A stretch of DNA of 33,381 nucleotides from a virus: the IMG/VR virus record IMGVR_UViG_3300006919_000210, positions 1 to 33,381 of that record, one strand, 5' to 3'. Made by a program: the position numbers and the translations under genes. Under the pieces are notes generated by a model. It was given only the letters and a program-made list of their open reading frames with translations. It made no database searches and had not been told where the DNA came from. Of this stretch, positions 4,783-33,053 are shown piece by piece (the stretch's first letter is position 1; the number at the start of each line of letters is the position of its first letter).

Positions 4783-5565
4783 ATGGCAGACTCATCCACA
4801 ACCAAACTTAGTTTAACCCTACCAGAAGTTGACGTTTCTACTACTTGGGCAACGTCAATAAACAACAACTTCACAACGTTAGATGACTCCGTTTTATTAA
4901 CTAATACCCAAACATTAGAAAATAAAACTCTTACTGATTGTGATGCGACTACGCAAGCTACGGGCAATAACTCGACAAAAATTGCGACAACTGCATTTGT
5001 TAAAGCTGAATTGGCTTTGCAGGACGCACTCTCAGAGTTATTGGATGTCGATGTTTCTAGTGCTAACAATAATGATGTTCTTGCTTACAATAGCTCAAAT
5101 CAAAAATTTGTAAACAAAACGGCAAGTAATGCGGGTCTTCAGCCAACAATTGCAGACGGTGACTTAACAATAGCAAAAACTAACGGTCTGCAGAGTGCTT
5201 TAGATGCCAAATTAGATAGTTCCGCACACACTAAAGCGTCACTAGATGTTGATCACTTAATTACACTTTCGGGGGTAACGGATGCTTCTGACGATTTAGG
5301 TACGTTTACGGGGTCTACAATTGCAGACTCTTCAACAATAAAAGCGTCACTTCAATCTTTAGAGACTGCAGTAGAAACCAAACAAGATACCATTAGTTCG
5401 TCAGCAAGAATTAACGCAGATTTGATACACGATGGTTCAATTAGTAATACAGAATTTGGTCACTTAAACGGGGTTACTTCTAACATCCAAACACAAATTA
5501 ATTCGTTGTCTGGTTCTACAGTAACCGAAGCAGATATTGTTGCTCTTTCAATTGCTCTTGGCTAG
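4783..5565 (+). CDS. Tail fibre-like protein
   Basis: A 260-aa protein with an N-terminal segment paralogous to the previous fibre (SLTLPEVDVSTTWATSINNN against SLTKSEVGANNDNWGTDLNN). It then has the phage-fibre signature LENKTLTD...NNSTKIATTAFVKAEL and several helical/beta repeats including LQSALDAKLDSSAHT and LQSLETAVETKQD. The whole reads as shaft rather than receptor-binding tip. There are four bases between the previous stop and this start. A role as a fibre shaft or connector is inferred from composition and neighbours. Confidence 0.72.
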   Translation: MADSSTTKLSLTLPEVDVSTTWATSINNNFTTLDDSVLLTNTQTLENKTLTDCDATTQATGNNSTKIATTAFVKAELALQDALSELLDVDVSSANNNDVLAYNSSNQKFVNKTASNAGLQPTIADGDLTIAKTNGLQSALDAKLDSSAHTKASLDVDHLITLSGVTDASDDLGTFTGSTIADSSTIKASLQSLETAVETKQDTISSSARINADLIHDGSISNTEFGHLNGVTSNIQTQINSLSGSTVTEADIVALSIALG

Positions 5566-7664: not shown

Positions 7665-10300
7665 GTAGATCCAGAGACTTAGGCGATGTAGGTTCTAAGG
7701 CTAATTTTTTAGATAATGTATCTACTGATTTAGGTGATTATTCGGGTCAAAGTATACCGCATATAGTCCCTAGATACTTACATCCTGCGATTGAAGGTAA
7801 GTCTTATGCTGGTGTAGATTTAAAGTCATTAGTAACTGCAGGAAATTATGTTTGGGGTGACGTTTATTCTGGTGATAATCGAAGGTACTTTTATACCGAT
7901 ATTAAAGGTAGTCGTAAAATCTTGGATGCTAGAATAGGCGCACACTTTGGCTCTCAACGGCACAAGTTTAAGAGCAAACAATTGCTAGAACAAGAGACTG
8001 CAACTCATGGTGAAAATGTTTATTCGGTTGACGGTAGGGATTGGGTTAGGGTTGTTGGTCCTGATTGGACTGAACAAAATGATACTTGGGGTACTGGTTG
8101 GTACTCGCCAAACAATGCCACAACTAATTCCCATTTTTTTGAAATAGTCGGTTATTTTTCAGATGCAAATATTTCAGGGTATGCGTCAACAACTAGAGAT
8201 GTAAGTGTCACAGTTGATGGTGGAACTCCGACAACGAATACTGGGTTAACAGCTTCTGTTGGCACTCCTTTAGATCATAGATATGTTGATGCAGGAAGCT
8301 CAATAAATTTAGGATTAAATCAAACTTTAGGTATACACACTTTAAAAATAGGAAATGTAAATGGCGATTATTGTGGTGTACTTTTTAACGTAGAACTAAT
8401 CGCCCAAGACACCTCAAACCGCAACAACATACAGATCCCTAGTCAGAATGTGGTGAGTTATGGGAAGAAGTTTACTGTAAGTGCAGAAGGCAATTCTGGT
8501 CATCACTTTAACCCCTTTAACAACCAAGCAATTGGTAATACGACAAGCCATGGAAAGAACACAACTGGCTGGACTTCATACGATTCCACATTAGACACAG
8601 CAACATCATTAGGTTTGGATGCTTGGGTAGACTCAGGTAACTACTATAGACCAGTTAATGGTGGACGAATTGTTAAATGGGTGGACTCTAGTGGAAACAT
8701 TAAGACATCCGTAAACATGATGCCTCCGGCTGGGAGACATATAAGCGGAGGAGGTAATAACGGCCTTCCAACTGGAACATCTTGGCTTACATCATATCAG
8801 CCATCATTTATGGCTGGGGCGATAGACCACTCACAGGCAGAAGTAGCAAAAACTTTCAATTGGCGAGAGTTTGGAAATGGCAATGCCAACGCTGGTCCAG
8901 TAACAGGTTCAACAGGAGGAAGTTATAAAGACTTTAGTATGCTATATGAATTTACCGCAACCAATTGTGCATTTGTTATGGACGATGGTCTTACAAGTTT
9001 AACTGGTAATGATGTTCATATTGATACTAAAGATGTTCATGGTGATGCAAATGGAGATGGTTTTTATTTTACCTTTATTGGTACTGGGATTACCTTAATG
9101 AACAAAGAAAGTAGTGCTGGTACTGACCATTTGGTTCAAAATTTACCTTATGGAGCTCATATTGTTAAATATTTTAGAAGTTCTGGTGCTGATCCGACTT
9201 TAGTGGTAGATGGCGTAACTATTACTTGTGCAACAGGTACTTATTCTTCACTTAATGAATTAACCTTCTACCAACCCAAGAAACCACCAATCCCTGAAGA
9301 AGCTGTAGTGTTATGTGACTATATGCTGATGGCAGATTTTGTTCCGCAAACAGCACATGGAGGTCAATATATTTCTAAGGGTACTAGAATGTGTACTAAT
9401 GCCAGAGATATATTTGTAGATAGGTCATCTGGTGCTGTTACTTTTAACCAAGATCCTGGATCAGTTTCAACAGGATTTAGGGTATATCCAAGCACAAATG
9501 CTGGCTCTAATACAGAATTTAAAGTTAGACTTCCTGCGTTTGCCACAAACTATGTGGTAAGAGGAAGGTATATGAATGACAGGGCTTTACTTTATATTGG
9601 GAATTCTACAACTACTTCTACATACGACAATAACGATGCTTATGGTAGTTATGCCCATTTAACAAATGATGAAAATTTAGGTATTCAAAATTGGGGAATG
9701 AACAGTAAATCAGGCAAACAAGCAATATTGGAGGCTTTTTGTTTTGCCACCCCAACCCACACTTCGTCACATTACCAATCCTTTGAAACCCCATTCCTTC
9801 ATGAGTTAGTTGGTGGTGACAGAAACATGGAACAGACGAATTTAGTTTGTAGTCCAGATGGTAAAACTTGGGACCAATTAACAAGGGACACGACTTACTT
9901 AGGAGACGCTGTTTTACAAATAACAGAAGCAGGTGATGCTTACGCAGATAATACGACTGTTATTTTTACTGATATAAGAGGAACAGTAGGCAATAGAGCA
10001 ATGTTCAATAAAAAACACTTTGCAATAGCTTACGATAGACAAATTTGCTTAATATCTGGGACATACGTTATTAGTCCTATGAGTATGACTGGTAGTAATA
10101 ATACTGGTGGTCATGTCGCAAGAATATATTTAAATGGTTCACACGTTGTTTCAGGATATGGCACATTAAGCGGTTATTCTACAGCAACAAATCAAGTAGA
10201 ATTGTATTTAAACAGAGGTGATTATATACAGATAAAAGGTTTATGGCACGCAAACAGTGCAGTTAGTTCTTATAGAATCACTAAAGTAAGGAAAGATTAA
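7661..10300 (+). CDS. Large tail fibre / receptor-binding protein
   Basis: An 879-aa protein and the largest of the fibre block. The N-terminus MSRSRDLGDVGSKANFLDNV is a short conserved anchor found at the start of many marine phage fibres. The rest is a chain of beta-rich domains. One occupies about 80-250, one with GxYxxF-type strands lies around 260-520, a jelly-roll-like segment runs about 560-740, and the C-terminal ~140 residues (from about 740) have a TNF/C1q-like strand pattern. No enzymatic motif is clear. It overlaps the preceding gene by four bases. Receptor binding is inferred from anchor, composition and position. Confidence 0.75.
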   Translation: MSRSRDLGDVGSKANFLDNVSTDLGDYSGQSIPHIVPRYLHPAIEGKSYAGVDLKSLVTAGNYVWGDVYSGDNRRYFYTDIKGSRKILDARIGAHFGSQRHKFKSKQLLEQETATHGENVYSVDGRDWVRVVGPDWTEQNDTWGTGWYSPNNATTNSHFFEIVGYFSDANISGYASTTRDVSVTVDGGTPTTNTGLTASVGTPLDHRYVDAGSSINLGLNQTLGIHTLKIGNVNGDYCGVLFNVELIAQDTSNRNNIQIPSQNVVSYGKKFTVSAEGNSGHHFNPFNNQAIGNTTSHGKNTTGWTSYDSTLDTATSLGLDAWVDSGNYYRPVNGGRIVKWVDSSGNIKTSVNMMPPAGRHISGGGNNGLPTGTSWLTSYQPSFMAGAIDHSQAEVAKTFNWREFGNGNANAGPVTGSTGGSYKDFSMLYEFTATNCAFVMDDGLTSLTGNDVHIDTKDVHGDANGDGFYFTFIGTGITLMNKESSAGTDHLVQNLPYGAHIVKYFRSSGADPTLVVDGVTITCATGTYSSLNELTFYQPKKPPIPEEAVVLCDYMLMADFVPQTAHGGQYISKGTRMCTNARDIFVDRSSGAVTFNQDPGSVSTGFRVYPSTNAGSNTEFKVRLPAFATNYVVRGRYMNDRALLYIGNSTTTSTYDNNDAYGSYAHLTNDENLGIQNWGMNSKSGKQAILEAFCFATPTHTSSHYQSFETPFLHELVGGDRNMEQTNLVCSPDGKTWDQLTRDTTYLGDAVLQITEAGDAYADNTTVIFTDIRGTVGNRAMFNKKHFAIAYDRQICLISGTYVISPMSMTGSNNTGGHVARIYLNGSHVVSGYGTLSGYSTATNQVELYLNRGDYIQIKGLWHANSAVSSYRITKVRKD

Positions 10301-11703: not shown

Positions 11704-12501
11704 ATGGGGATGGTAAATAACGTAGCCGGTCCTGCAATGGATATGATGAGCGCGAGAAGGGTAATGGCTCAACAGCCATCCCCAAGTGGCCCAGTAGCAC
11801 AACCGGCTCCTGACCCTCAAGGAGGTATGGGGCAACAAATGAGACAGATGGATATGCCGAGTCCTGGTCAAGGACAACTAATGAACGCTGGACCAAACTC
11901 GATTCAGTCACAACCCCAAGCTGGAGTTGGCATGGCTAGGATGATGGGTGGACAGGCTCCGCAAATGGGGCAATATGGTCAGATGGGCCAGCGCGGTCAG
12001 ATGGGTGGCTTTGGAATGCAACAACCAATGAGACCTCAATTCGGAGGAGGTTTCATGGGAGGTATGTACCAACCTAGACCTCAAATGTTTGGAGGAGGAG
12101 GTTTTGGCATGAACCCATTCGGAGGAATGGGGATGCAAGGTATGGGTATGAGAGGAATGGGAATGGGTATGGGAGGAATGGGAGGATATGGAATGTCTCC
12201 CATGATGAGCCGAGGCTTTGGTATGGGTATGGGCGGTATGCAGAACCCTTACGGTATGATGGGACAACAACCTATGATGCGACAACAGCAAGGCTTCATG
12301 GGCGGTATGTACAACCAAGGGATGAACGCTGCTCGACAAATGCCTCAAGCTAGGATGGGGCAAATGATGAATGCTCCTATGGACACAAGCATGGCCCAAC
12401 AGAGAGGTATAGCACAACAGGGATTAGGACAGGCTAACCAAAACGCCCAAGCAAATGCTATGTCAATGGATATGGCAAGAAGGGCATTAGGAGGATTCTA
12501 A
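11704..12501 (+). CDS. Met/Gly/Gln-rich low-complexity protein
   Basis: A 265-aa protein of extreme composition. By hand count about 53 residues are Met, and Gly and Gln are also abundant. I see no Lys, Glu, Cys, His or Trp; the charge comes from scattered Arg and Asp. The middle (about 75-200) is built of imperfect GM, GMGG, GQMG and MGMG units with Phe/Tyr interspersed. The end (about 220-265) turns Ala/Gln-rich and possibly helical. No signal peptide or membrane span is seen. It has the best ribosome site of the region and is coupled (TAATG) to the M15 peptidase. Function is unknown. The composition is that of a prion-like, flexible protein. It could be a virion or lysis component. The reverse-strand frame here is a shadow of this repetitive coding. 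Confidence 0.75.
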   Translation: MGMVNNVAGPAMDMMSARRVMAQQPSPSGPVAQPAPDPQGGMGQQMRQMDMPSPGQGQLMNAGPNSIQSQPQAGVGMARMMGGQAPQMGQYGQMGQRGQMGGFGMQQPMRPQFGGGFMGGMYQPRPQMFGGGGFGMNPFGGMGMQGMGMRGMGMGMGGMGGYGMSPMMSRGFGMGMGGMQNPYGMMGQQPMMRQQQGFMGGMYNQGMNAARQMPQARMGQMMNAPMDTSMAQQRGIAQQGLGQANQNAQANAMSMDMARRALGGF

Positions 12502-17860: not shown

Positions 17861-18201
17861 AACGAGTTAAAGAGTTACTTACACCAGCACTAGAACGCGC
17901 GGATGAGGTTAGTTGGGAATGGTTACTAGAAGGAATTGCGAATGGAGATATTCAATTATGGATGGGCAAAGAATCAGCCCTTACCACAAGAATTATCTAT
18001 GGTCTGCACACTGAACTTCAGTGGGTCATGGTAGGCGGTAGCCTAAAAGAAGTATTGGAAATGGTTCCTAAGATAGAAGAATGGGCAAAATCAATGGGTT
18101 GTACTAAAGCTAGATTTGTTGGAAGGAAAGGCTGGGCCAAAGTTCTTCAAGATTTAAATTATAAAATTTTACCACAAGTCAGTATGACTAAGGAGTTATA
18201 A
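17851..18201 (+). CDS. Small alpha/beta protein between tail and ejection genes
   Basis: A 116-aa protein. The frame opens at TTG 17851; there is no in-frame ATG near the N-terminus. The segment WEWLLEGIANGDIQLWMGK followed by TELQWVMVGGSLKEVLEMVP and MGCTKARFVGRKGWAKVL resembles short phage proteins found beside internal virion genes. Their strand-helix order recalls the end of an acetyltransferase (GNAT) fold, though the acetyl-CoA loop is not convincing. It is coupled by TAATG to the 675-aa gene. A role in DNA-ejection assembly is suggested by position only. Confidence 0.65.
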   Translation: MDIQRVKELLTPALERADEVSWEWLLEGIANGDIQLWMGKESALTTRIIYGLHTELQWVMVGGSLKEVLEMVPKIEEWAKSMGCTKARFVGRKGWAKVLQDLNYKILPQVSMTKEL

Positions 18202-23183: not shown

Positions 23184-26100
23184 ATGTCTTATATACAGCA
23201 CGTTCTTGATGATTACGATTCAAATCAATCTCTGTCTCCAGTAGAGAAATACCAGAAGAAAAAAGATTACATCAATAGCCTTCTAGATGAAGAAGGTATT
23301 GATGATGTCAATCGTAGAAATAACGTCATCCAACAGTGGATAGGTGACGATCCCATAGCTACAGAAGGTAGCTTCATGGAACGTGCAGGGAGATCCTTTT
23401 CCAGAGGGGTAGATCAACTTCAATCCAATATTGGTGCAATAGGTGAGTACGCTGGCGAACTTACTGGTATCGATACCCTCCGTGAAGCTGGAGGTGACCT
23501 CTACGAGGAACAGAAGAGCCAGATGGATGCCCAGGCTCCTGCTTACCAAAGTCTTGAGCAGGAAGGCACTGGTTTCATGGATCGCATCGATGATTATGCG
23601 AACCTTGGAGTTGAATCCCTTGTTGGCTCTGCTCCGATTGCTATGGCTGGTCCTCTTCTTGCTGCTTCTGCTCCAGCTACCCTCGCTGGTGGCATCATTG
23701 CTGGTACTGGAGCTGCTGTCCTCTCCAACGCAGCATTAGAAGGTGGGACCACATATGCGGAACAATCAAGGAATGAAAACTTAGGAAGGACTGAAGAAGA
23801 GCGAAGAGCTAAAGCTCTCGCTCAAGCAAACGAAGTCGCTATTGCACAAGCAAGAGATCCTGAGCTTCTCGCCAATTCAGTACTATCATCAGTCCCTCTT
23901 GGAAAGGTCATGACCAATGCAGGGAACATGACCAGACTGGGTGCTGGGGCTGTCCAACAATCTGGTCTTGAAGGTCTCCAAGAAGGTAGACAATACGAAG
24001 TTGGAGAGGCCGCAAGAGGGAACGAAGTCAGTAGGTTTGATCCTGAAGGTCAAGAGCAGATGATTGTAGGTGCGTTAACTGGTGCGCCTGGAGCTGCGAT
24101 TGACGTTATCATGGACCCAAGGGTGGACCAACAGGCCACGGATATCTACCAGAAGATGGATGTTGAGAGGGCCGAAGAGGCTATTGCAGCAAGTGATGAA
24201 AACTTAATTCAGGAAAACAAGGGTAAAGGGTTAATCCAACAACAGATTGAACTTCTCAAGCTCAAGAGAGAAGAGCTTAAACTCAATAGGGAAGAGGATG
24301 CCTATCTTAACGATTTAGAGACCTACCGCTCGAATGCTATTGAGCGCGAACAAAAGGTAGTCGAGAACGATATCCGAATTGAGGAACGGATTGCAAAGCA
24401 GAGAGAGGCATTAGAGAAGCAACGTCTTTCTATCAAGAGCCGTCCAGATGAAGACTTGAAGAAGGCAAAAAAAGCAGAAAAGGACGAAGATAAATTAAAG
24501 GAAAGACAGGAGAAGGATAAACCCAAGGAAGTTGATAAAGGGTTCAGAGGTATAGAGGCCCAGAATATCGCTGAAGAGAAAGAGGCTTTAGAAGAATACA
24601 ATCAAGACTTTCAGCCAGGCAAACAGCTAGGGGCCGATAGAGCAAGGCAGACAAGGCTTGAAAACCTTCCTGAAAAACAGAAAGACAAACAAATTAGTGA
24701 AGCCTTTAAAATAAACGAAAGAAGAAGGCTTAGGGAAGAGAGGCAAGCTGACACTGAAGTCGCTAAAGAAAACCAAGCTATAGCGGATGAGATAACTGAA
24801 GGGCTAGGAGCAGATGATCTATCTTTAGAGAATAGGGAAACATTTGGTAAACAAATCCCTACACCTAAATCACAGGCACAATTAGATGCTGAACAGCTAA
24901 AAGCAGAACAAGAGCTTGCTGCCGCTAAATTGGCAGCCGAGGCTGAAGCTCGTAAAGAGACCGAGCCTCAAGCAGAAACAATGGATGATCTTCTGGCAGA
25001 GACAGATGCACCAATTGTACAAGATGTTGTACAAGATGATGTACAAGTAACTCCAGAGGAAAGGACTGACGAGGACGTTATTACTGGGGACTCAGATGAT
25101 GTAGAGAGTGAAGTTGCCCAAGATGCCCTAAGCCAAGAAGAAGGGCAAGTTGGGCAAGTTGACGATAAATACTTCGTTGTTGATGACCAAGATAACATTG
25201 TGGATTCTGCTCCAACTTTAAAGGAGTTACGCGCGGTCAGGAAGTTTAGTGGCAAGAAGAAGGACGGACTTTTCACTGGGAAGGATGAAGTCAAGCTTGC
25301 AAGTGGTCAACCTGGTAGCAACCTATTTGTAGGGACCAAGGAGGATCTTTCCAAGGCTGGGAAAGGAAAAGCATTTGGGGGTACAAATGAAGTAGAATCG
25401 GCTACAGACGTTGCAGACACTGCAAATGTGGAGTTTGAAGATATCCCTGACGTTACAGATAAGGAGTTTCAGGCTTCTGAGGCCGCTCAACAAAAGACAG
25501 TCGAGAAAGCTCTTTCAACTAAAGAGTATGAACTACTAGATAAAACTGCAGATGGTGAATCTGCAGATGCAGATACTATTAAATTTGTAAGAGACACGGC
25601 TACTGAACTAGAAATTGATTTAAAGTTTCCAGATGGTAAGGAGAAAAAAGTAGATGAGTTGGCAGACGATATATTGTCTTCAGGTAATGTCTACGAAGAT
25701 ACTGACCTTGCATCCTATTACGAAGACACTACAGATCAAACAGAGACCCTAACGCCCAGACAACTTTCGGTAGCGATGAGATCCCTGAAGAATGGATTTA
25801 AGTCGATGCCAGATGTTGAAGTCTTAGCTGACAATAATGCTGTCCGTGAAGTGGTAGGTAGAGAGACAAAACCTATGGAAGGTTTTGTCAAGGATGGAAA
25901 GATTTATGTAGTAGCGGAAAACCTCCGAGGGAAGACTACAAAAGAAGCCGTAACAAGGGCCGTTCAGGTTTTTTATCATGAGGGCATTGGTCATCTAGGG
26001 TTGACAAACTTCATGAACAACCATGGCGGTTTTGACAACTTTATGGATGCTTTCGGAAAGAATACAAGGAACAGGAAGAAACTCCGTAAGTGGCTAGGAA

Positions 26101-29100
26101 CAGACAGAGGGAAACAATACAAAGACAAAAGTGAGAGGGTCCAGTTCGAGGAATACATTGCTTCCGAGTTTGCGGAAAAGGGAGTCCGTGGAGTAGGCAC
26201 TCTTGAAGCGGTTGGTGAGTCCATCCGAAGGGTCATGGGAATCAAAGGTTCTGAGACCGCGCTTAGACAGGCACTCCAGAAAGTCCAGAAGGAGATGCAG
26301 TCAGACGGAAGAGTAAGCCTGTTCACTGGGAAGAGAGGAGGAAAGGCCATTGAGTCCAACCAAGACAAAGAAAAGCTTAGGAATGAAGAAATCATTGGTT
26401 CTAAGATTTCTGAAGAGGACTTCAACGGATCTACAGATGAAGGATTCAGGGCATCCTATCTAACCCAAGAGCAAGGTTCAAAATTCCCTGTTCAGCCTAG
26501 AGAAGAAACAATCTTCTCGTCAGATGAAGCCCAGACAATGGGAGGGATCAAGGAGCGTGGACGAAAGAGAATGTTATCATTCCTGAAAGGTTTATCTGAA
26601 GGAATGGCTCCAGCGGATCTGATTCGCCAATCTAAACGGATGATGATGTCGCACAAGGACGTTTACGATCCTAATCTTGGAGAAGAGTCTGGCAAGAAAT
26701 CAAATTTCAATCCGAATAAATACTCTGACGAGGAAGCCGTAGTCAGGGTTCATCTAGGTGGAACAATCAAACTAGAGTCAGGAAAGACTGGGAAAGGATA
26801 CACAGCACACCCTGTCACAAAAACTGGGAAGCCTGACTACAATAAAGCCATGTTCTACGGACCAGGATTCAATATCGTAGACGGCTCCTTCCAAGTAGAC
26901 CAGAACAAGAGAAGAGATATCGCCCTTGGGAAAAACAAGAAGGGAGATAAACAGACCAAAGTACCTATGGCAGGGTTGCAAGGAAAGTTAGCTACTACAC
27001 CTCTAAGTACTGAGGGCAAACAGGTCATATTCAATCCCAAGACAGTCCATCTGTTTACAGAGTCCTCGACTGGTCTAGCCGTTAAAGGGTTCAAGGGTGA
27101 GGCAAGTGCTATAGGCAATACGATATATGTTCGAGGGGAGCTTGAGTATTACACCAAGGAGAATATGCCTGAAGCCGTGGACGGAGTAGCCAGTGAGTCA
27201 AAGCCATTCGATCAACAAGAAGAAGCCCAATACACAGGTGAAGAGATGGCAGACTACTGGATTGACTCCCAAGCGGAGATGCAGAGGGCTGGTGTAGAGG
27301 AAGATGGTATCCGTGAGTCTTTTATGGGCGAAGTGCTTGATGCTGCAAATCCAACATTCCGTGAACCAATCATTGAGAAGTTGAAGTCAGTAGGTCAAGT
27401 CGTAGCCAAGTATGCAGACAGCGCGGTCAACCCAGTTGCATTGATTCCGAAGATGCAGGAATACTTAAAAGGGAGGAATCGAGTCAAGGGTAGAATCGAT
27501 AGACTAAGTGAACTGGGTAAACAGATTTACGATACGCTGAAGAAAGCGAATCCAGAGCAAGGAGAGAGGATATATAAATATTTAACGACTGTTGATGCTG
27601 ACCCTAACACCATCCCAGAAGATGAGTTTAGAGAGATTTCTATCCAGATTAAGGATGGAATCGAGAGGATTGGTGAACAGGCTGTAGCCTCTGGAGTTTT
27701 GGCAAGGGACCAAGTGAACGCTCTCAAAGGTCAGTATTTACCTCGTGTATACATGAAGTATCTGCTTGGTGAGGATAACTCCGCATTCGCTCAAGTCTTG
27801 AGAAGTGATCTCAAGGTACAAGGTGATTGGATGAAGGGTAGAAAGAACATTGATGAGGCGATCCGAAAGATCTTTCTTGGGGAAGTAGAAGACCCAGCCT
27901 ACCTTGCCCAGAAGGGTATCGTTACTCCAGGAAGAGATTTGGCAATCATTGATTTCATGGATTGGATTTCCACAAAGCCTGAGTGGGCTTACGAGGAACA
28001 ATTTACAGAGTTCAATACTCAGCAAGAGATATTCGATCTTGCTCAAGATGATGCGGTTGCCCAAAGCCTCATTAATGATTACGGATTGACTCCGACTGAT
28101 AAGCCTATGCGGACTACCGCAAACTACTTATTGGGTGAGGCGAAGCGGATAGAATCCCAGTTGAGTATGTTTGAGGAAAATGGTGGGAAAGATACTGCCA
28201 AACTCAAATTGATGAAGGGTCTTGCGGAAAGGATGCGAGAAGAGGGTGAAAGAACCCTAAATGCAGGAGGTATCAACGAGGCGGCAGAGGCTGCAGGATT
28301 CGTCAAGATGCCTGACATGAAGAAGTACGGAAAGCTCCGTGGAATGTATGTCTTGCCAGAAATCAAAGAGGATCTGACAGGCGCACAAATCCTTTCTGAC
28401 GAAGCACCAAACTGGCTCAAGAATCTTGTTGGCGAAGGTGGAAAGATAGCTAGGTTTGGATCGTTCTTCAAACTATCCAAAACTGCACTAAACTTCCCAG
28501 CCGGTCATGTACGGAACTTTGTGTCCGCTGCTTCGCTTGCCTACTTTGCTGATGTCCCAGTTACGAAACTTCCCAAGCTGATCGGAAGAGCATTCAATGA
28601 GATGAGGACACAGGGCCGATACTACAACATGGCTAAAGACCGAGGATTGATGTCCGCTGGATTTATCGCAGAAGAAGTCAAGCGTGTGGAAGTCGAGTAC
28701 CTGAATGCCCTCAAACAGAATGAAGCCAAAGGTCCGTGGGAGCAGATGTGGTTATCCGTTCAACTGGCTGCATCAAAGCTAGGAAATAAAGCTGGAGACC
28801 TTTATCAGTTTGGTGATGAAATCAACAGGCTTGTTGTCCTTATGGACCAAGTTGAGAACAAGGGAATTGATCCTGACACGGCTGCAGTCCATGCAAACAA
28901 ATGGATCATGGATTACAGTCTCGCGCGAAGTTGGGTCAAGTATGGACGAACCGCTGTTATCGGCGCACCCTTCCTGACCTATACGGCAAAAATAGTCCCT
29001 CTGATGTTGGAAACCGCTGTAACCAAACCTACGAAATTCATACTTCCATATGCACTTGGTCATGGAATGATGGAATTCACAAAGGCTCAATTTGATTGGG

Positions 29101-29864
29101 ATGATGAGGACGTTGAAGCGTTGAAACTTAATCTTCCAGATTACTTGAGAAGTAAGGCAAACGCTGGGATGTTACCTCCTGCCTTAATCCCAATACCTTG
29201 GAAAGATTCCGAAGGAAGAATTCAGTTCTGGGATGCCAGCTATGTATATCCTTGGGGTATAATTAATGAGTTATGGTCTGAGATTTCTGAGGGAGATGCA
29301 GCTCAAGTACTAAGAACTTTGGGTGTAATGGGAAGTCCTCTTCCACAAGTCTTGACAGCCATTCAGATGAACGAAGATCCGTTCACGCAAAAAGAGATAA
29401 TTCAGCCTTGGATGGAACCATTCGATCAGATTATGGCTCTTACGGATTATGCTTGGAACCTGACAGCACCTCCGTTCATGCACGGCATGGTATCTATGAC
29501 GATGCCTGGACAAGAGAACAAAGGTTTTGGTGTAATATCTAGGATGACAAGAATAGGTGACTTCAAGAGAGGATCTGGAGAACCTGAAAAGGATCTTGGT
29601 CAGATAACTGGTCAGGCGATAGGTTTTAACCTAACGGCTGTCAATCCCAAAATCACAAGAGAGAGAAACGTCCGTCAGTTGGAGAGGGAGTTATCGGATA
29701 TCCGTAGTGAACGGAAGCAAGTTATTCAGCAACTTAACCGAAATAAAAAATACAGAAAAGCTGCTGAAGTAGCTAAAGAATTTAGCGAAAGAATTCAACG
29801 GAAGCAAAAAGAGATACGAGAGTATCGTCAGTCCACTGTGAGGGCAATACGAGCTGCTTCTTAG
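23184..29864 (+). CDS. Giant multi-domain (polyvalent-type) ejection protein with zincin-like motif
   Basis: A 2226-aa protein. (1) Residues 1-140 are helical. (2) A hydrophobic Ala/Gly/Leu stretch at 145-186 could insert in a membrane. (3) Long acidic coiled coil and linker run about 320-720. (4) A metalloprotease-like region at about 870-1010 has FYHEGIGHLGL (His932, Glu933, His937, an HExxxH arrangement) and downstream FEEYIASEFAE (Glu989, 990, 995) as a possible third ligand. (5) A beta-rich domain at about 1187-1330 includes VHLFTESSTGLAVKGF. (6) Helical regions follow to about 1750. (7) The C-terminal part has PFLTY at 1929-1933 and a W-D-x-SYVYPWG element. It resembles the membrane-associated LPD38-type end of large polyvalent proteins. 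It is probably ejected with the DNA. Protease activity is unproven. Confidence 0.72.
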   Translation: MSYIQHVLDDYDSNQSLSPVEKYQKKKDYINSLLDEEGIDDVNRRNNVIQQWIGDDPIATEGSFMERAGRSFSRGVDQLQSNIGAIGEYAGELTGIDTLREAGGDLYEEQKSQMDAQAPAYQSLEQEGTGFMDRIDDYANLGVESLVGSAPIAMAGPLLAASAPATLAGGIIAGTGAAVLSNAALEGGTTYAEQSRNENLGRTEEERRAKALAQANEVAIAQARDPELLANSVLSSVPLGKVMTNAGNMTRLGAGAVQQSGLEGLQEGRQYEVGEAARGNEVSRFDPEGQEQMIVGALTGAPGAAIDVIMDPRVDQQATDIYQKMDVERAEEAIAASDENLIQENKGKGLIQQQIELLKLKREELKLNREEDAYLNDLETYRSNAIEREQKVVENDIRIEERIAKQREALEKQRLSIKSRPDEDLKKAKKAEKDEDKLKERQEKDKPKEVDKGFRGIEAQNIAEEKEALEEYNQDFQPGKQLGADRARQTRLENLPEKQKDKQISEAFKINERRRLREERQADTEVAKENQAIADEITEGLGADDLSLENRETFGKQIPTPKSQAQLDAEQLKAEQELAAAKLAAEAEARKETEPQAETMDDLLAETDAPIVQDVVQDDVQVTPEERTDEDVITGDSDDVESEVAQDALSQEEGQVGQVDDKYFVVDDQDNIVDSAPTLKELRAVRKFSGKKKDGLFTGKDEVKLASGQPGSNLFVGTKEDLSKAGKGKAFGGTNEVESATDVADTANVEFEDIPDVTDKEFQASEAAQQKTVEKALSTKEYELLDKTADGESADADTIKFVRDTATELEIDLKFPDGKEKKVDELADDILSSGNVYEDTDLASYYEDTTDQTETLTPRQLSVAMRSLKNGFKSMPDVEVLADNNAVREVVGRETKPMEGFVKDGKIYVVAENLRGKTTKEAVTRAVQVFYHEGIGHLGLTNFMNNHGGFDNFMDAFGKNTRNRKKLRKWLGTDRGKQYKDKSERVQFEEYIASEFAEKGVRGVGTLEAVGESIRRVMGIKGSETALRQALQKVQKEMQSDGRVSLFTGKRGGKAIESNQDKEKLRNEEIIGSKISEEDFNGSTDEGFRASYLTQEQGSKFPVQPREETIFSSDEAQTMGGIKERGRKRMLSFLKGLSEGMAPADLIRQSKRMMMSHKDVYDPNLGEESGKKSNFNPNKYSDEEAVVRVHLGGTIKLESGKTGKGYTAHPVTKTGKPDYNKAMFYGPGFNIVDGSFQVDQNKRRDIALGKNKKGDKQTKVPMAGLQGKLATTPLSTEGKQVIFNPKTVHLFTESSTGLAVKGFKGEASAIGNTIYVRGELEYYTKENMPEAVDGVASESKPFDQQEEAQYTGEEMADYWIDSQAEMQRAGVEEDGIRESFMGEVLDAANPTFREPIIEKLKSVGQVVAKYADSAVNPVALIPKMQEYLKGRNRVKGRIDRLSELGKQIYDTLKKANPEQGERIYKYLTTVDADPNTIPEDEFREISIQIKDGIERIGEQAVASGVLARDQVNALKGQYLPRVYMKYLLGEDNSAFAQVLRSDLKVQGDWMKGRKNIDEAIRKIFLGEVEDPAYLAQKGIVTPGRDLAIIDFMDWISTKPEWAYEEQFTEFNTQQEIFDLAQDDAVAQSLINDYGLTPTDKPMRTTANYLLGEAKRIESQLSMFEENGGKDTAKLKLMKGLAERMREEGERTLNAGGINEAAEAAGFVKMPDMKKYGKLRGMYVLPEIKEDLTGAQILSDEAPNWLKNLVGEGGKIARFGSFFKLSKTALNFPAGHVRNFVSAASLAYFADVPVTKLPKLIGRAFNEMRTQGRYYNMAKDRGLMSAGFIAEEVKRVEVEYLNALKQNEAKGPWEQMWLSVQLAASKLGNKAGDLYQFGDEINRLVVLMDQVENKGIDPDTAAVHANKWIMDYSLARSWVKYGRTAVIGAPFLTYTAKIVPLMLETAVTKPTKFILPYALGHGMMEFTKAQFDWDDEDVEALKLNLPDYLRSKANAGMLPPALIPIPWKDSEGRIQFWDASYVYPWGIINELWSEISEGDAAQVLRTLGVMGSPLPQVLTAIQMNEDPFTQKEIIQPWMEPFDQIMALTDYAWNLTAPPFMHGMVSMTMPGQENKGFGVISRMTRIGDFKRGSGEPEKDLGQITGQAIGFNLTAVNPKITRERNVRQLERELSDIRSERKQVIQQLNRNKKYRKAAEVAKEFSERIQRKQKEIREYRQSTVRAIRAAS
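25015..25047 (+). repeat. 12-bp tandem repeat in the giant gene linker
   Basis: TTGTACAAGATG occurs twice in succession (25015-25026, 25027-25038), followed by a partial third copy (ATGTACAAG). It encodes VQDV/VQDD/VQV within the acidic linker. Each unit contains the palindrome TTGTACAA or TGTACA. The unit is in frame and probably reflects slippage. Confidence 0.8.
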
Positions 29865-30328
29865 CCATGTACCTCTAGCTTGGGCTTTGGCTTCATATCA
29901 AGCATTTCATGAATTGGGATATCATAAACCAATTCCCTGTCTGTAGGCCAAAACCTTTTGAAGGTTCCTGCCTCAACCAACGGATATTTAACGACTGTGT
30001 GTACATCGATGAACTTGGTTACATGGTCTGACCACTTCACAAAATAGTACGCGCGACATCCAAACCCTGCAGCCAAAAGCTTTAGGGCCGAAGCCTTCCT
30101 TAAGTTCAGCCAGATTGTTGGGTGTTTATCGTGTGGGTTGCTCCGTTCCTTAAACTCAATGACTGAGTGGATCTGAAGTTCAGGTTTCCGATAGCATATG
30201 AAATCAACAGGACTCAACCTCCCCAGGTGACTAAGTTTGTAGTTCCCATTCTGAAGCTCAAAGTCTGATTTGAACTTCTGTTCGTTTTCTTCTGCAAGTG
30301 CGACATCTCCTAACATCCCTGTCTCCAT
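29861..30328 (-). CDS. PD-(D/E)XK nuclease-like protein
   Basis: A 155-aa protein with the core of a PD-(D/E)XK nuclease: Glu16 in the first helix, Asp42 in SPVDFICY, then Glu58 and Lys60 in VIEFKER. A following helix (TIWLNLRKASALKLLAAGFG) and strand (RAYYFVKWSD) fit the fold. Such small phage enzymes process recombination or replication intermediates. It is the last gene of the - strand module. Its TAA overlaps the opposing TAG of the giant gene (TTAG at 29861-29864). Upstream is the 218-bp repeat region, and one repeat overlaps its start codon. The C-terminal ~45 residues have no recognised pattern. Confidence 0.72.
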   Translation of the reverse strand: METGMLGDVALAEENEQKFKSDFELQNGNYKLSHLGRLSPVDFICYRKPELQIHSVIEFKERSNPHDKHPTIWLNLRKASALKLLAAGFGCRAYYFVKWSDHVTKFIDVHTVVKYPLVEAGTFKRFWPTDRELVYDIPIHEMLDMKPKPKLEVHG

Positions 30329-30347
30329 TGTCGATATTGTCTATACG

Positions 30348-30367
30348 CACTGGCTTCAATGCCAGTG
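30348..30367. other. Perfect hairpin between repeats A and B
   Basis: CACTGGC (30348-30354) and GCCAGTG (30361-30367) form a perfect 7-bp inverted repeat with a six-base loop TTCAAT. No T-run follows on either strand, so it is not a normal terminator. In the - strand transcript it would fold just upstream of the nuclease start (about 20 bases away). Confidence 0.75.
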
Positions 30368-30380
30368 ATATCAACAGATA

Positions 30381-30424
30381 GAGACTTTTAACTCGTTCAA
30401 ACTGAATGAGTAATAAAAAGCCTC
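30381..30424. other. Long hairpin between repeats B and B'
   Basis: ACTCGTTCA (30391-30399) pairs with TGAATGAGT (30403-30411) across a three-base loop with one G-T position. The stem can extend outward through CTTTT with AAAAG and GAG with CTC, with some mispairs. The T-rich arm comes first and the A-rich arm last on the + strand, the opposite of a bidirectional terminator. A cruciform or origin-like element is possible. Confidence 0.6.
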
Positions 30425-30485
30425 TAATCTGTTTATTATCAACGGATAGACGTTAAATCCAAAAAGATTATTGTCCATACGTTGT

Positions 30486-30512
30486 CTATAAAAATAGAGT
30501 CCCAAAGGCTCC
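30486..30512 (-). terminator. Possible weak terminator after the 71-aa gene
   Basis: Read on the - strand, GGAGCC-TTTG-GGACTC (30512-30497) forms a short stem with one bulged A and is followed by TATTTTTATA (about 30495-30486). It begins 35 bases after the stop of the 71-aa gene, so it could end the primase transcript before the nuclease gene. The stem is short, hence the moderate confidence. Confidence 0.45.
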
Positions 30513-30518
30513 ACACTT

Positions 30519-30531
30519 TTTCAATTTGAAA
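30519..30531. other. 13-bp palindrome, possible operator
   Basis: TTTCAATTTGAAA is a perfect inverted repeat (6-bp arms about a central T) lying between the 71-aa gene stop and the repeat region. AT-rich palindromes of this size can be protein-binding sites but also arise by chance. Confidence 0.4.
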
Positions 30532-30546
30532 CTCAACCTATAAAGA

Positions 30547-30762
30547 TTAATTAACAATTGATGGGACTCCATTCCTTTTGACCACTACATGGTCCTTGAA
30601 CACTAAGATCTCCGATCCGTCCTCTACGGATATGCCAACATAAGAACCAGAACGTAGGCCAGAACAAGAGACAAGACCGGCTCTTATCTTCTTGGCTATC
30701 TCAAAGACCTCTACACCTCTACTTGCAAGCTCATCGACTTGCTCGTTTGTAACAACATTCAT
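30547..30762 (-). CDS. 71-aa hypothetical protein
   Basis: A small protein coupled to the end of the primase-helicase gene (ATGA overlap at 30759-30762) with a GGAGGT ribosome site five bases before its ATG. Residues 1-30 are helical (MNVVTNEQVDELASRGVEVF). Residues 35-71 read as a small beta barrel or SH3-like set of strands (SGSYVGISVEDGSEILVFKD, then HVVVKRNG). No family is recognised. Its placement in the replication operon suggests a regulatory or DNA-metabolism role, which is only inference. Confidence 0.68.
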   Translation of the reverse strand: MNVVTNEQVDELASRGVEVFEIAKKIRAGLVSCSGLRSGSYVGISVEDGSEILVFKDHVVVKRNGVPSIVN

Positions 30763-33053
30763 AATACCTCCGAAAGGCTAATTATCCAGTCAGCCTTTTT
30801 GCCCTCCTTGGTCACGTTAATCCTATTGGATTCGTCCAAGAACTCAAATACTGATTGGTATTCTTTAGCATTGGGATCTTCTCCGTAGACTTCCTTCAAT
30901 GGTTTGAATCTAAGGATTTTCCCCCAAGTAGTTTTACCGCCTTCTACAGCAATAAATTTTAGTATTGCTCCCCTTGCTCTTTCATCCCTAGAACCTCCGA
31001 GGCTTCCTCTATAAAGGTTTATAGTGGAGTTCGCAGAGTGACTGACTATGGAGATGGCTCCCTGCATTGACTCATTACTGATCTCATCTGATCCTGGCTC
31101 ATCAACCCACTGGAGGATCATTGCCAGTTTTATAATATTAGCAGGCCAACGCTTACAGAAGGCATCCATCAGACTCTTGACACTGGGATCAGTTTCCTGA
31201 AACTTCGTTTCATAAAACAGATCGTGAGCATCCCTATAATCAACGGAAGCGTGTTCCGATAGTCGCATCTGGGTATCGCCTTCAATCTCCATAATCTTAT
31301 CGACTACCATCTTCATCTTGGCGTATTCGTAAGTTGAGTTAAAGGGTCTTCCATCTGGTGGCAACGCTGGAGGAATCACATCCTCATGCGGAAGCTTGAA
31401 GAGGAGAAACCTAGCCAGAAATCCTGTTTTAACGTCTTTAGGTGTTAAAAGATCCCCTACAAATTCTTCCGTACTGACACCAGCGATTGAGATATATGGA
31501 TTCTCAACAGGAAGATACCCTTTACCAACAGTGGATTTCGAGTCTTTGTAGTAGGCGTTATACATACTGGTCAACTCACTCTTAAATCCCTTGTTAGTGG
31601 AGCTATCGAAGTTATGAAGAAAGGTAGAAAACTCATCCACAATGAAGGCTCCTCCATTTTTCTTCCTACTAAGCAGCTCATAGAAGGCATCATAAGTAAT
31701 TCGATTTGAATACTTTAGTAGGCTTGCCTCAATGGACTTAATCTGGTCAAGAAGGAGATTCTTTTGGTCAGCTTTGAGGTTAGGAAGCTCCCAAGATTTC
31801 TCCTTGATCTCCTTCTTGATTTCCGAATCATGGACCCCTAGTAACTCAGAACCTTTGGCGAGTGCTGTACTCTTCCCTGCACCAGATCCAGCGAATACGA
31901 GAGACCAGATGTTCGATCTCATTGGCTCGAAAAACATGAAATGAGACTTATGCCCAACGTATGTGGAGAGAGTGGTCATGAGTGACATTAAAACCATCGT
32001 AGGGGAAACCATTGTTCCCTCCGCTGCCTTGTTAACATAATCCTGAATCGTCACTGGGAGGTACTCCATATTGAATTCAGAACTATCGTCTGAGTACTCT
32101 TCCAAGACTTCTTTCCGAGCCTTCTCCAGTACAGCGATCTCAGGAACCGGAACACTCTCTCCACCTAACGGAGTCTCTTCCATTCCTGCCTTGAGTCCGT
32201 TCTCGATGGTCTGAAATGCCTTTGGTTCAGGATATCCGAGCTTAGAGACAACAGCATCCTGAAGAGCTTTACGCGCGGTCATTTCATCCACTTCAGATTC
32301 AAGCCCTAAGAAGAAGGCCATATCGTTAATGGTATTATTGACCTGTCCCTGTGTAGCAGAAAGGATTGTGTTTACTGCATGAGCAACTGGACCTGTCTGG
32401 GCTTCTGGCTTTTCAGGAGCGTTGCATTTGACAATGGTCCATCCAGATTGGGGATCTCTTGGAGCATCGTTCAGGAAGATATCGGCTGGCTTGAACTGTT
32501 TCTTCCTATATTTAGGAAACCACTTTTGGATTTGCTTTAGGCTTACTATGGGAATCTTACCAAACTCACCGCCTACCTGTTCGTACTTGACCATGCCGTT
32601 CCCTGACTTTTTATCCTCTACTACAGACGGAGGAAGTAAAGCCATCGATCCATAACCAAGAACTTCTCCACAATGTTTCCCATTGTATTCAAAGTTCCAT
32701 TTACTTATAGGGGATGCAGAACTGACGGACACCCAAACGTGAGTTCCTCCTGAAGGTGTTCTGACTACCGGAGCTTTTAGAACAAGCTCCTGGAATTCCA
32801 TGTCATCCGTCAGTTTTGTGAAATATTCTGGATCGTCAAAATCCAGAACTAAGAGATGAACCGATTTACTACCAGCGAGGGTTCCAATGACACCTCCCAC
32901 GTTATATTCATCATCACTGAATCGTTCTAAGGTATCATTGAAATCTTCACTACCTAATTGGTTCCACGCCTTATCGACTGGTACTTTCGTTCCCTTCCGA
33001 ATCCTCAGTAAGGGGATTCCTGCTTTGTGGTAGGTTGTCAAATCTTTTTGCAT
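30759..33053 (-). CDS. Primase-polymerase fused to DUF3987-type helicase
   Basis: A 764-aa replication protein. The N-terminal ~190 residues are an archaeo-eukaryotic-type prim-pol domain: the catalytic acids are in LVLDFDDP (Asp71, Asp73), the nucleotide-binding motif is TPSGGTHVW (Ser101, Gly102, His105), and GEVLGYGSMALLPPS follows as in other prim-pol domains. After a linker, residues about 325-760 form a P-loop ATPase of the DUF3987 type: Walker A GSGAGKST (389-396) and Walker B AFIVDEFS (Asp473, Glu474). The fusion supports priming and unwinding by one chain. An AGGAG site lies seven bases before the ATG, and a small gene overlaps its start by 83 bases. Confidence 0.88.
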   Translation of the reverse strand: MQKDLTTYHKAGIPLLRIRKGTKVPVDKAWNQLGSEDFNDTLERFSDDEYNVGGVIGTLAGSKSVHLLVLDFDDPEYFTKLTDDMEFQELVLKAPVVRTPSGGTHVWVSVSSASPISKWNFEYNGKHCGEVLGYGSMALLPPSVVEDKKSGNGMVKYEQVGGEFGKIPIVSLKQIQKWFPKYRKKQFKPADIFLNDAPRDPQSGWTIVKCNAPEKPEAQTGPVAHAVNTILSATQGQVNNTINDMAFFLGLESEVDEMTARKALQDAVVSKLGYPEPKAFQTIENGLKAGMEETPLGGESVPVPEIAVLEKARKEVLEEYSDDSSEFNMEYLPVTIQDYVNKAAEGTMVSPTMVLMSLMTTLSTYVGHKSHFMFFEPMRSNIWSLVFAGSGAGKSTALAKGSELLGVHDSEIKKEIKEKSWELPNLKADQKNLLLDQIKSIEASLLKYSNRITYDAFYELLSRKKNGGAFIVDEFSTFLHNFDSSTNKGFKSELTSMYNAYYKDSKSTVGKGYLPVENPYISIAGVSTEEFVGDLLTPKDVKTGFLARFLLFKLPHEDVIPPALPPDGRPFNSTYEYAKMKMVVDKIMEIEGDTQMRLSEHASVDYRDAHDLFYETKFQETDPSVKSLMDAFCKRWPANIIKLAMILQWVDEPGSDEISNESMQGAISIVSHSANSTINLYRGSLGGSRDERARGAILKFIAVEGGKTTWGKILRFKPLKEVYGEDPNAKEYQSVFEFLDESNRINVTKEGKKADWIISLSEVL

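Follow-up and report, generated by a model that had tools for sequence, protein, structure and literature searches.

A non-coding stretch of 250 bases in a phage genome very probably folds as mRNA into hairpins able to mask or free the ribosome-binding site of the nuclease gene that follows it. With about even confidence, and judging from sequence, we propose that this element acts in cis as a structured leader RNA for the nuclease and is read from the minus strand together with the replication operon. It combines the strongest predicted RNA fold of the genome with higher conservation than silent positions of its neighbors, and it abuts the Shine-Dalgarno sequence of the gene that it would control. 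The coordinates of all features are given in Table 1.

Genome context of the element

The DNA analyzed (the window, 33,381 bases) represents one virus record, IMGVR_UViG_3300006919_000210, that encodes an SU10-type capsid protein (Pfam) and probably belongs to a podovirus-like phage. This phage is probably marine, judging by the type of sample from which a relative, called G001 hereafter, probably comes. The rightward structural genes end at position 29864 and face a leftward replication operon in which a primase-helicase gene lies upstream of a nuclease gene of the PDDEXK_14 family; a search of 16 other phages turned up no member of this family. Between the nuclease open reading frame and a small gene for a product of 71 aa lies a gap of 218 nt, the longest in the window ahead of one of 92 nt, in agreement with the first-pass annotation that had called it the only sizeable non-coding DNA in the right half. 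A small open reading frame inside the gap (30371-30514) was discarded and the gap taken as non-coding because, by eye, the frame is lost in G001. The 71-codon gene fills precisely the space between primase gene and element. It was apparently inserted, or lost, at the element's edge, given that its last eight codons form the 5' arm of the stem P0 and that it is absent from G001.

On the structural side, a single gene for a protein of 2226 amino acids (23184-29864) takes up one fifth of the record. The C-terminal third of this protein is 93% identical to its counterpart in G001 and 25-29% identical to the product of a gene of podovirus ctwe8250 (MW202615), and no supported Pfam family was found in it. 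Many podoviruses with a DUF3987 helicase (loci L024-L039) show a replication operon that ends with the helicase gene and runs head-on into a giant (4-6 kb) structural gene.

Table 1. Positions of the element, its repeats and predicted helices, and the neighboring genes in the window
Feature	Positions	Strand	Remarks
PDDEXK_14 nuclease gene, start best placed at M5 (ATG 30316-30314)	29861..30316	-	Pfam PF24579, E 5.9e-11; Shine-Dalgarno
Nuclease Shine-Dalgarno GGAG	30323..30326	-	inside 3' arm of H1
Whole conserved element, proposed structured leader RNA from upstream gene end to nuclease start	30314..30577	-	fold z; identity to G001
Repeat A, TTGTCGATATTGTCTATACG	30328..30347	+	unchanged in G001 up to its outer end
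Repeat B, TATCAACAGATAGAGAC	30369..30385	+	unchanged in G001
Repeat B', TATCAACGGATAGA	30437..30450	+	changed in G001
Repeat A', TATTGTCCATACGTTGTCTATA	30469..30490	+	unchanged in G001
Hairpin H1	30321..30385	-	repeat B with repeat A and Shine-Dalgarno; 24 bp, 10-nt bulge
Hairpin H2	30373..30434	-	AACAGAUUAGAG with repeat B; excludes H1; Shine-Dalgarno left free
Hairpin H3 (repeats A' and B')	30439..30484	-	-15.3 kcal/mol (window), -11.5 kcal/mol (G001)
Long-range stem P0	30495..30571	-	UGGAGUCCCA/UGGGACUCUA, then AUUUUUAU; terminator-like with long loop
Small hairpin in P0 loop, UUAAUCU-UUAU-AGGUUGA	30533..30550	-	identical in window and G001
71-codon gene, no known family	30547..30762	-	absent from G001; last codons overlap 5' arm of P0
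Prim-Pol + DUF3987 primase-helicase gene	30759..33053	-	Pfam PF09250, PF13148; upstream in nuclease operon

Start codon of the nuclease and repeats of the element

The longest open reading frame of the nuclease begins at 30328 (M1) with an ATG inside repeat A, which had been taken for the start of the gene. This codon does exist, but its Shine-Dalgarno energy of 0.4 kcal/mol amounts to none, while the next in-frame ATG (M5) has GGAG 6 nt before it and an energy of -6.4 kcal/mol that is typical of this genome. Because a Shine-Dalgarno sequence precedes M5 only, the start is best placed at 30316, so that repeat A would immediately precede the ribosome-binding site rather than cover the start codon.

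Sequence reading and a repeat search recovered all repeats (A-B-B'-A') and hairpins that the first-pass annotation had named, including the perfect 7-bp hairpin between A and B (CACTGGC/GCCAGTG) and the long imperfect one between B and B' (30373-30434). The paired TTGTCNATA units described in A and A' are indeed about one helical turn apart (spacings of 9 and 11 bp), and the search that it suggested for further copies returned four in the whole window (30328, 30337, 30471, and 30482), all on the plus strand and all within this interval. Four copies compare to 1.5 expected in the window, and 7 of 100 shuffles hold at least as many, for a word that was picked post hoc after being seen. The direct repeats as such (score 13) are not beyond chance (10.7 +- 1.7 in shuffles, maximum 17), whereas the inverted repeats reach a local score of 35 that lies far above the 15.5 +- 3.7 of dinucleotide shuffles (maximum 27, n=120). 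A 13-bp palindrome noted to the right of the repeats, TTTCAATTTGAAA at 30519-30531, is present but not conserved in G001 and was set aside.

If the TTGTCNATA pairs in A and A' acted as a double-stranded DNA operator, they would bind a phage regulator of nuclease transcription or of an internal promoter, and it would make sense that all four copies of the window lie here, that all four are kept in G001, and that A and A' are unchanged over ~20 bases. We nevertheless find such an operator improbable, since the direct repeats do not exceed shuffles, a count of four single words is post hoc, G001 has three additional copies elsewhere, and conservation extends far past the TTGTCNATA sites while B' is changed.

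Conservation of the element together with the nuclease

Searching IMG/VR with DNA words taken from the element itself and from the genes for nuclease, primase pair, and giant structural protein yielded a sole relative of the element, G001 (IMGVR_UViG_3300007511_000061; 35,551 bases or 35.5 kb), which carries both the element and the nuclease. Blast of phage and plasmid records found no relative of the element, and exact 19-mer matches to bacterial genomes numbered four, about the chance expectation. Over 277 aligned positions the elements of window and G001 are 89% identical and thus exceed the four-fold degenerate sites of the flanking genes (38/54 and 168/290 identical, i.e., 58-70%), which places the element under selection as non-coding sequence. 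As for the alignment of related genomes that had been proposed as a check, G001 keeps the nuclease and repeats A, A', and B, but neither B' nor the 13-bp palindrome.

Along the operon, identity is ~0.5-0.6 within the primase gene, increases abruptly to 0.84-0.93 in the element, and amounts to ~0.9 in the nuclease, and the encoded proteins are 57% (primase-polymerase) and 95% (nuclease) identical to those of G001. A blast block covering 25695-30576 shows that homology ends abruptly at 30576, where the element has its 5' edge. Since homology runs on into the nuclease while the primase has diverged and the 71-codon gene is absent, the element belongs with the nuclease. The same pattern could arise from a recent recombination patch that took in the nuclease along with the last part of the structural module, within which the element would have no structural function as RNA or DNA; the 4.9 kb of flanking sequence shared with G001 at 81% and the boundary at the element's edge would fit. 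This explanation is very improbable in our view because the four-fold sites in that patch trail the element so clearly (58-70% against 89%) and because no other stretch of the genome is folded as strongly as the element.

Predicted RNA structure

RNA folding gave a z-score of -6.6 for the minus strand, the sense of the operon, and -5.0 for the plus strand; for the element, minus and plus strand compare as -6.3 vs -5.0 in the window and -4.9 vs -3.8 in G001. Among 754 positions x 2 strands across the window record, the minus-strand element shows the strongest structure; within the genome of G001 it ranks third, not first, for folding. Strand-symmetric helices contain 17 G-U against 8 A-C pairs when read as minus strand, a weak excess that leans toward minus-strand RNA. 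The plus strand also folds well, so the structure may be one of DNA instead. Conservation with the nuclease, the direct contact with its Shine-Dalgarno sequence, and the strongest fold on its sense strand together support the part of the first-pass annotation that assigned the element a role in controlling the nuclease.

Two of the predicted hairpins compete for repeat B. In H1, the inner 7-bp stem reads CACUGGC/GCCAGUG as RNA and GGAGAC, with the Shine-Dalgarno sequence, pairs with GUCUCU; the hairpin alone has -29.2 kcal/mol in the window and -23.7 kcal/mol in G001, and its duplex of B with A is matched by 9 and 8 of 1000 shuffles, respectively. The pairing of B with the strand upstream of it in H2 is matched by 1 (window) and 4 (G001) of 1000 shuffles, with energies for the hairpin alone of -23.3 and -22.8 kcal/mol, and B does not pair with A' any better than shuffled sequences do. 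Which hairpin prevails in the window depends on the segment folded: it is H1 for the entire leader up to the start codon, and H2 for a segment that begins at H2 and takes in coding sequence; this switch of the preferred state with the folded segment indicates that the two are close in energy. The minimum computed for G001 contains H2 and has a mostly free Shine-Dalgarno sequence (paired with probabilities of 0.02-0.56).

Both genomes agree in the anti-B strand, in B, in A together with the Shine-Dalgarno sequence, and in the lower 17 pairs of H1. Toward the tip of H1, in its inner stem, a G-C pair has become A-U on both sides in G001, and further changes affect the H3 3' arm, which is rewritten though the hairpin persists, the tip of H2, and P0 (G-U in the window, G-C in G001). 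Changes within helices are mixed when counted by eye (one two-sided compensation, two one-sided changes with the pair kept, and at least three broken pairs), and as they come from n=2 sequences, covariation cannot prove the structure (see PMC11234323 for a general caution on inferring RNA structure by covariation). A scan with the covariance models of Rfam 15 gave no match to the element; its single chance-level match lies outside.

Helices of this size might serve the processing or stability of the message without any switch, either as targets of RNase III or by protecting the 3' end of the primase-helicase message, with P0 and the T-run as a weak terminator. H1 and H2 are each ~20 or more bp long, P0 is followed by AUUUUUAU in both genomes, and the element sits between two genes of one operon, all of which suits this reading. 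We rate it as rather unlikely, because it does not alone account for a Shine-Dalgarno sequence inside a helix, leaves the two partners of repeat B with full conservation of all three strands unexplained, and has to reckon with a P0 loop of 57 nt that is unlike ordinary terminators.

Proposed mechanism of nuclease control

As a leader RNA, the element would act on long transcripts that arrive from the primase-helicase side, in which the folded leader may lower nuclease translation as H1 buries the ribosome-binding site. The nuclease would then be made when repeat B is held in H2. Alternatively, it could be made from transcripts that start inside the leader without the 5' arm of H1, or from transcripts that lose this arm through a cut inside the leader, e.g., by a double-strand-specific RNase. 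Either way, a DNA-cutting enzyme would be delayed until late infection, as for T4 genes 49, e, and soc and I-TevI. The trigger might be an internal late promoter, processing of the RNA, a protein, or a ligand. A candidate site for such a promoter or protein is offered by repeats A and A', which read TATAGACAA...GACAAT on the minus strand; a sigma-70-like promoter was not recognizable within the leader.

A more elaborate version would be a two-state riboregulator in which repeat B is common to the sequestering H1 and the anti-sequestering H2, while the upstream domain (P0 and H3 with A') senses an infection signal and sets the stem, tying nuclease output to the stage of replication. The signal might be a small molecule, a protein such as the nuclease or primase, or a ribosome that completes translation of the gene upstream. 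We consider this version quite unlikely.

The element as a possible origin of replication

The first-pass annotation had offered an origin with iterons as one interpretation. It finds no support: the direct repeats are at chance level, the element did not diverge along with the primase-helicase, and no stem-loop recurs consistently downstream of the DUF3987 helicase gene in 13 other phages. The change in GC skew at ~30 kb, an inflection that had been suggested as a sign of an origin, coincides with the switch in gene direction and is uninformative in this respect; skew was dropped from the analysis since it tracks gene direction.

The best alternative to a leader RNA is instead a pRN1-like origin, in which a stem-loop immediately follows the primase-polymerase/helicase gene and at which that protein would assemble and melt the DNA. 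pRN1 needs a stem-loop of ~100 nt just 3' of its primase-helicase gene, and a similar one was proposed for Bordetella phage BIP-1 (PMC4234260). With these precedents, it speaks for an origin that the element starts about a dozen bases past the primase stop codon in G001 (in the window, past the 71-codon gene), and that Vibrio phage VS-ABTNL-3 also has large stem-loops beyond its DUF3987 gene. Still, we judge this origin possible but unlikely. The element is 89% identical in G001 while the primase-helicase has drifted to 57%, and pRN1-type proteins have an SF3/D5 helicase and a winged helix, whereas the helicase part is DUF3987 here: Pfam found Prim-Pol and DUF3987 but neither D5_N nor a winged helix in the window's primase-helicase, while BPP-1 has D5_N.

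Long stem-loops at this place are also not a rule in 13 other phages with a DUF3987 helicase, and BPP-1 itself has a z-score of only -1.9. Within 2.5 kb downstream of the DUF3987 gene, the structure ranks 1/475 in the window, 1/284 in Aeromonas phage P5, 2/284 in VS-ABTNL-3, and 1/646 in Tiera, while Mel-JY34, Kuura, a Desulfofustis phage, vir526, and DDSR119 do not rank among the highest. The very strong hairpin of P5 recurs at two other gaps of its genome, and in several other phages (Tiera, PaP2, and ctMlz233) the site is a junction of converging genes, at which one expects terminators. A general rule of a stem-loop downstream of the DUF3987 helicase, which looked strong in the first three genomes, was thus rejected after a wider set and a test for long stems had removed it. 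The gene arrangement is compatible with an origin without being a rule of the DUF3987 protein family. More generally, a plausible call of an origin with iterons can dissolve once strand, co-conservation with neighbors, and start-codon evidence are checked.

Some of these genomes carry structures that merit description in their own right. VS-ABTNL-3 has two large stem-loops without T-runs in a convergent gap (8189-8378 of locus L028), the best single pRN1-type parallel among the phages tested. The hairpins of P5 are a dispersed family of three, located in three gaps (4970-5095, 12123-12229, and 17973-18096 of locus L027) and very long, with a common TGTCAAGGG...CCCTTGACA core. EBPR podovirus 3 (JF412296) contains two near-perfect inverted repeats (9391-9449 and 29047-29103 of locus L034) with the same GATGCGGCCGCTTGTATCTGATAC arm, which resemble adaptors introduced by cloning or assembly more than phage DNA.

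Comparison with known systems

The element resembles iteron origins and multi-site operators of the P4 ori/crr type in that short words are repeated at about helical spacing, but differs from them by having two word pairs only, a repeat strength at chance level, and conservation beyond the words. With pRN1 and BIP-1 it shares non-coding stem-loops that directly follow a Prim-Pol-helicase gene and are preceded by what may be a terminator stem. Unlike in these systems, the helicase is of the DUF3987 type, and the element is conserved with the downstream nuclease instead of the primase and abuts a translation start.

The leader RNA that we favor finds closer counterparts in phage T4, where the Shine-Dalgarno sequence or start codon of e, soc, 49, and I-TevI is sequestered by an inhibitory structure; in gene e, late promoters whose transcripts lack the 5' arm provide relief (PMC3014915). 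What marks sequestration of a ribosome-binding site, a Shine-Dalgarno sequence within a stable sense-strand hairpin, is found here in H1, with H2 as its competitor. Like these T4 genes, of which gene 49 encodes endonuclease VII, and like mobE of phage Aeh1, the element concerns a phage gene, often a nuclease, with its Shine-Dalgarno sequence in a hairpin of long transcripts from an upstream gene. It differs from them in that the leader is ~250 nt long, contains several hairpins, and offers the 5' arm a second pairing option; furthermore, the sigma-70 scan identified no late promoter. We therefore see the element as a candidate example of the known type of phage leader hairpin with a new sequence (no Rfam match, one relative), in which the two-partner design of repeat B is the part that could be new. 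If this is true, the element is a compact candidate for a two-state leader that is in no RNA library, and an unrelated phage joins the few cases of a DNA-cutting enzyme held back by a message folded over its own ribosome-binding site.
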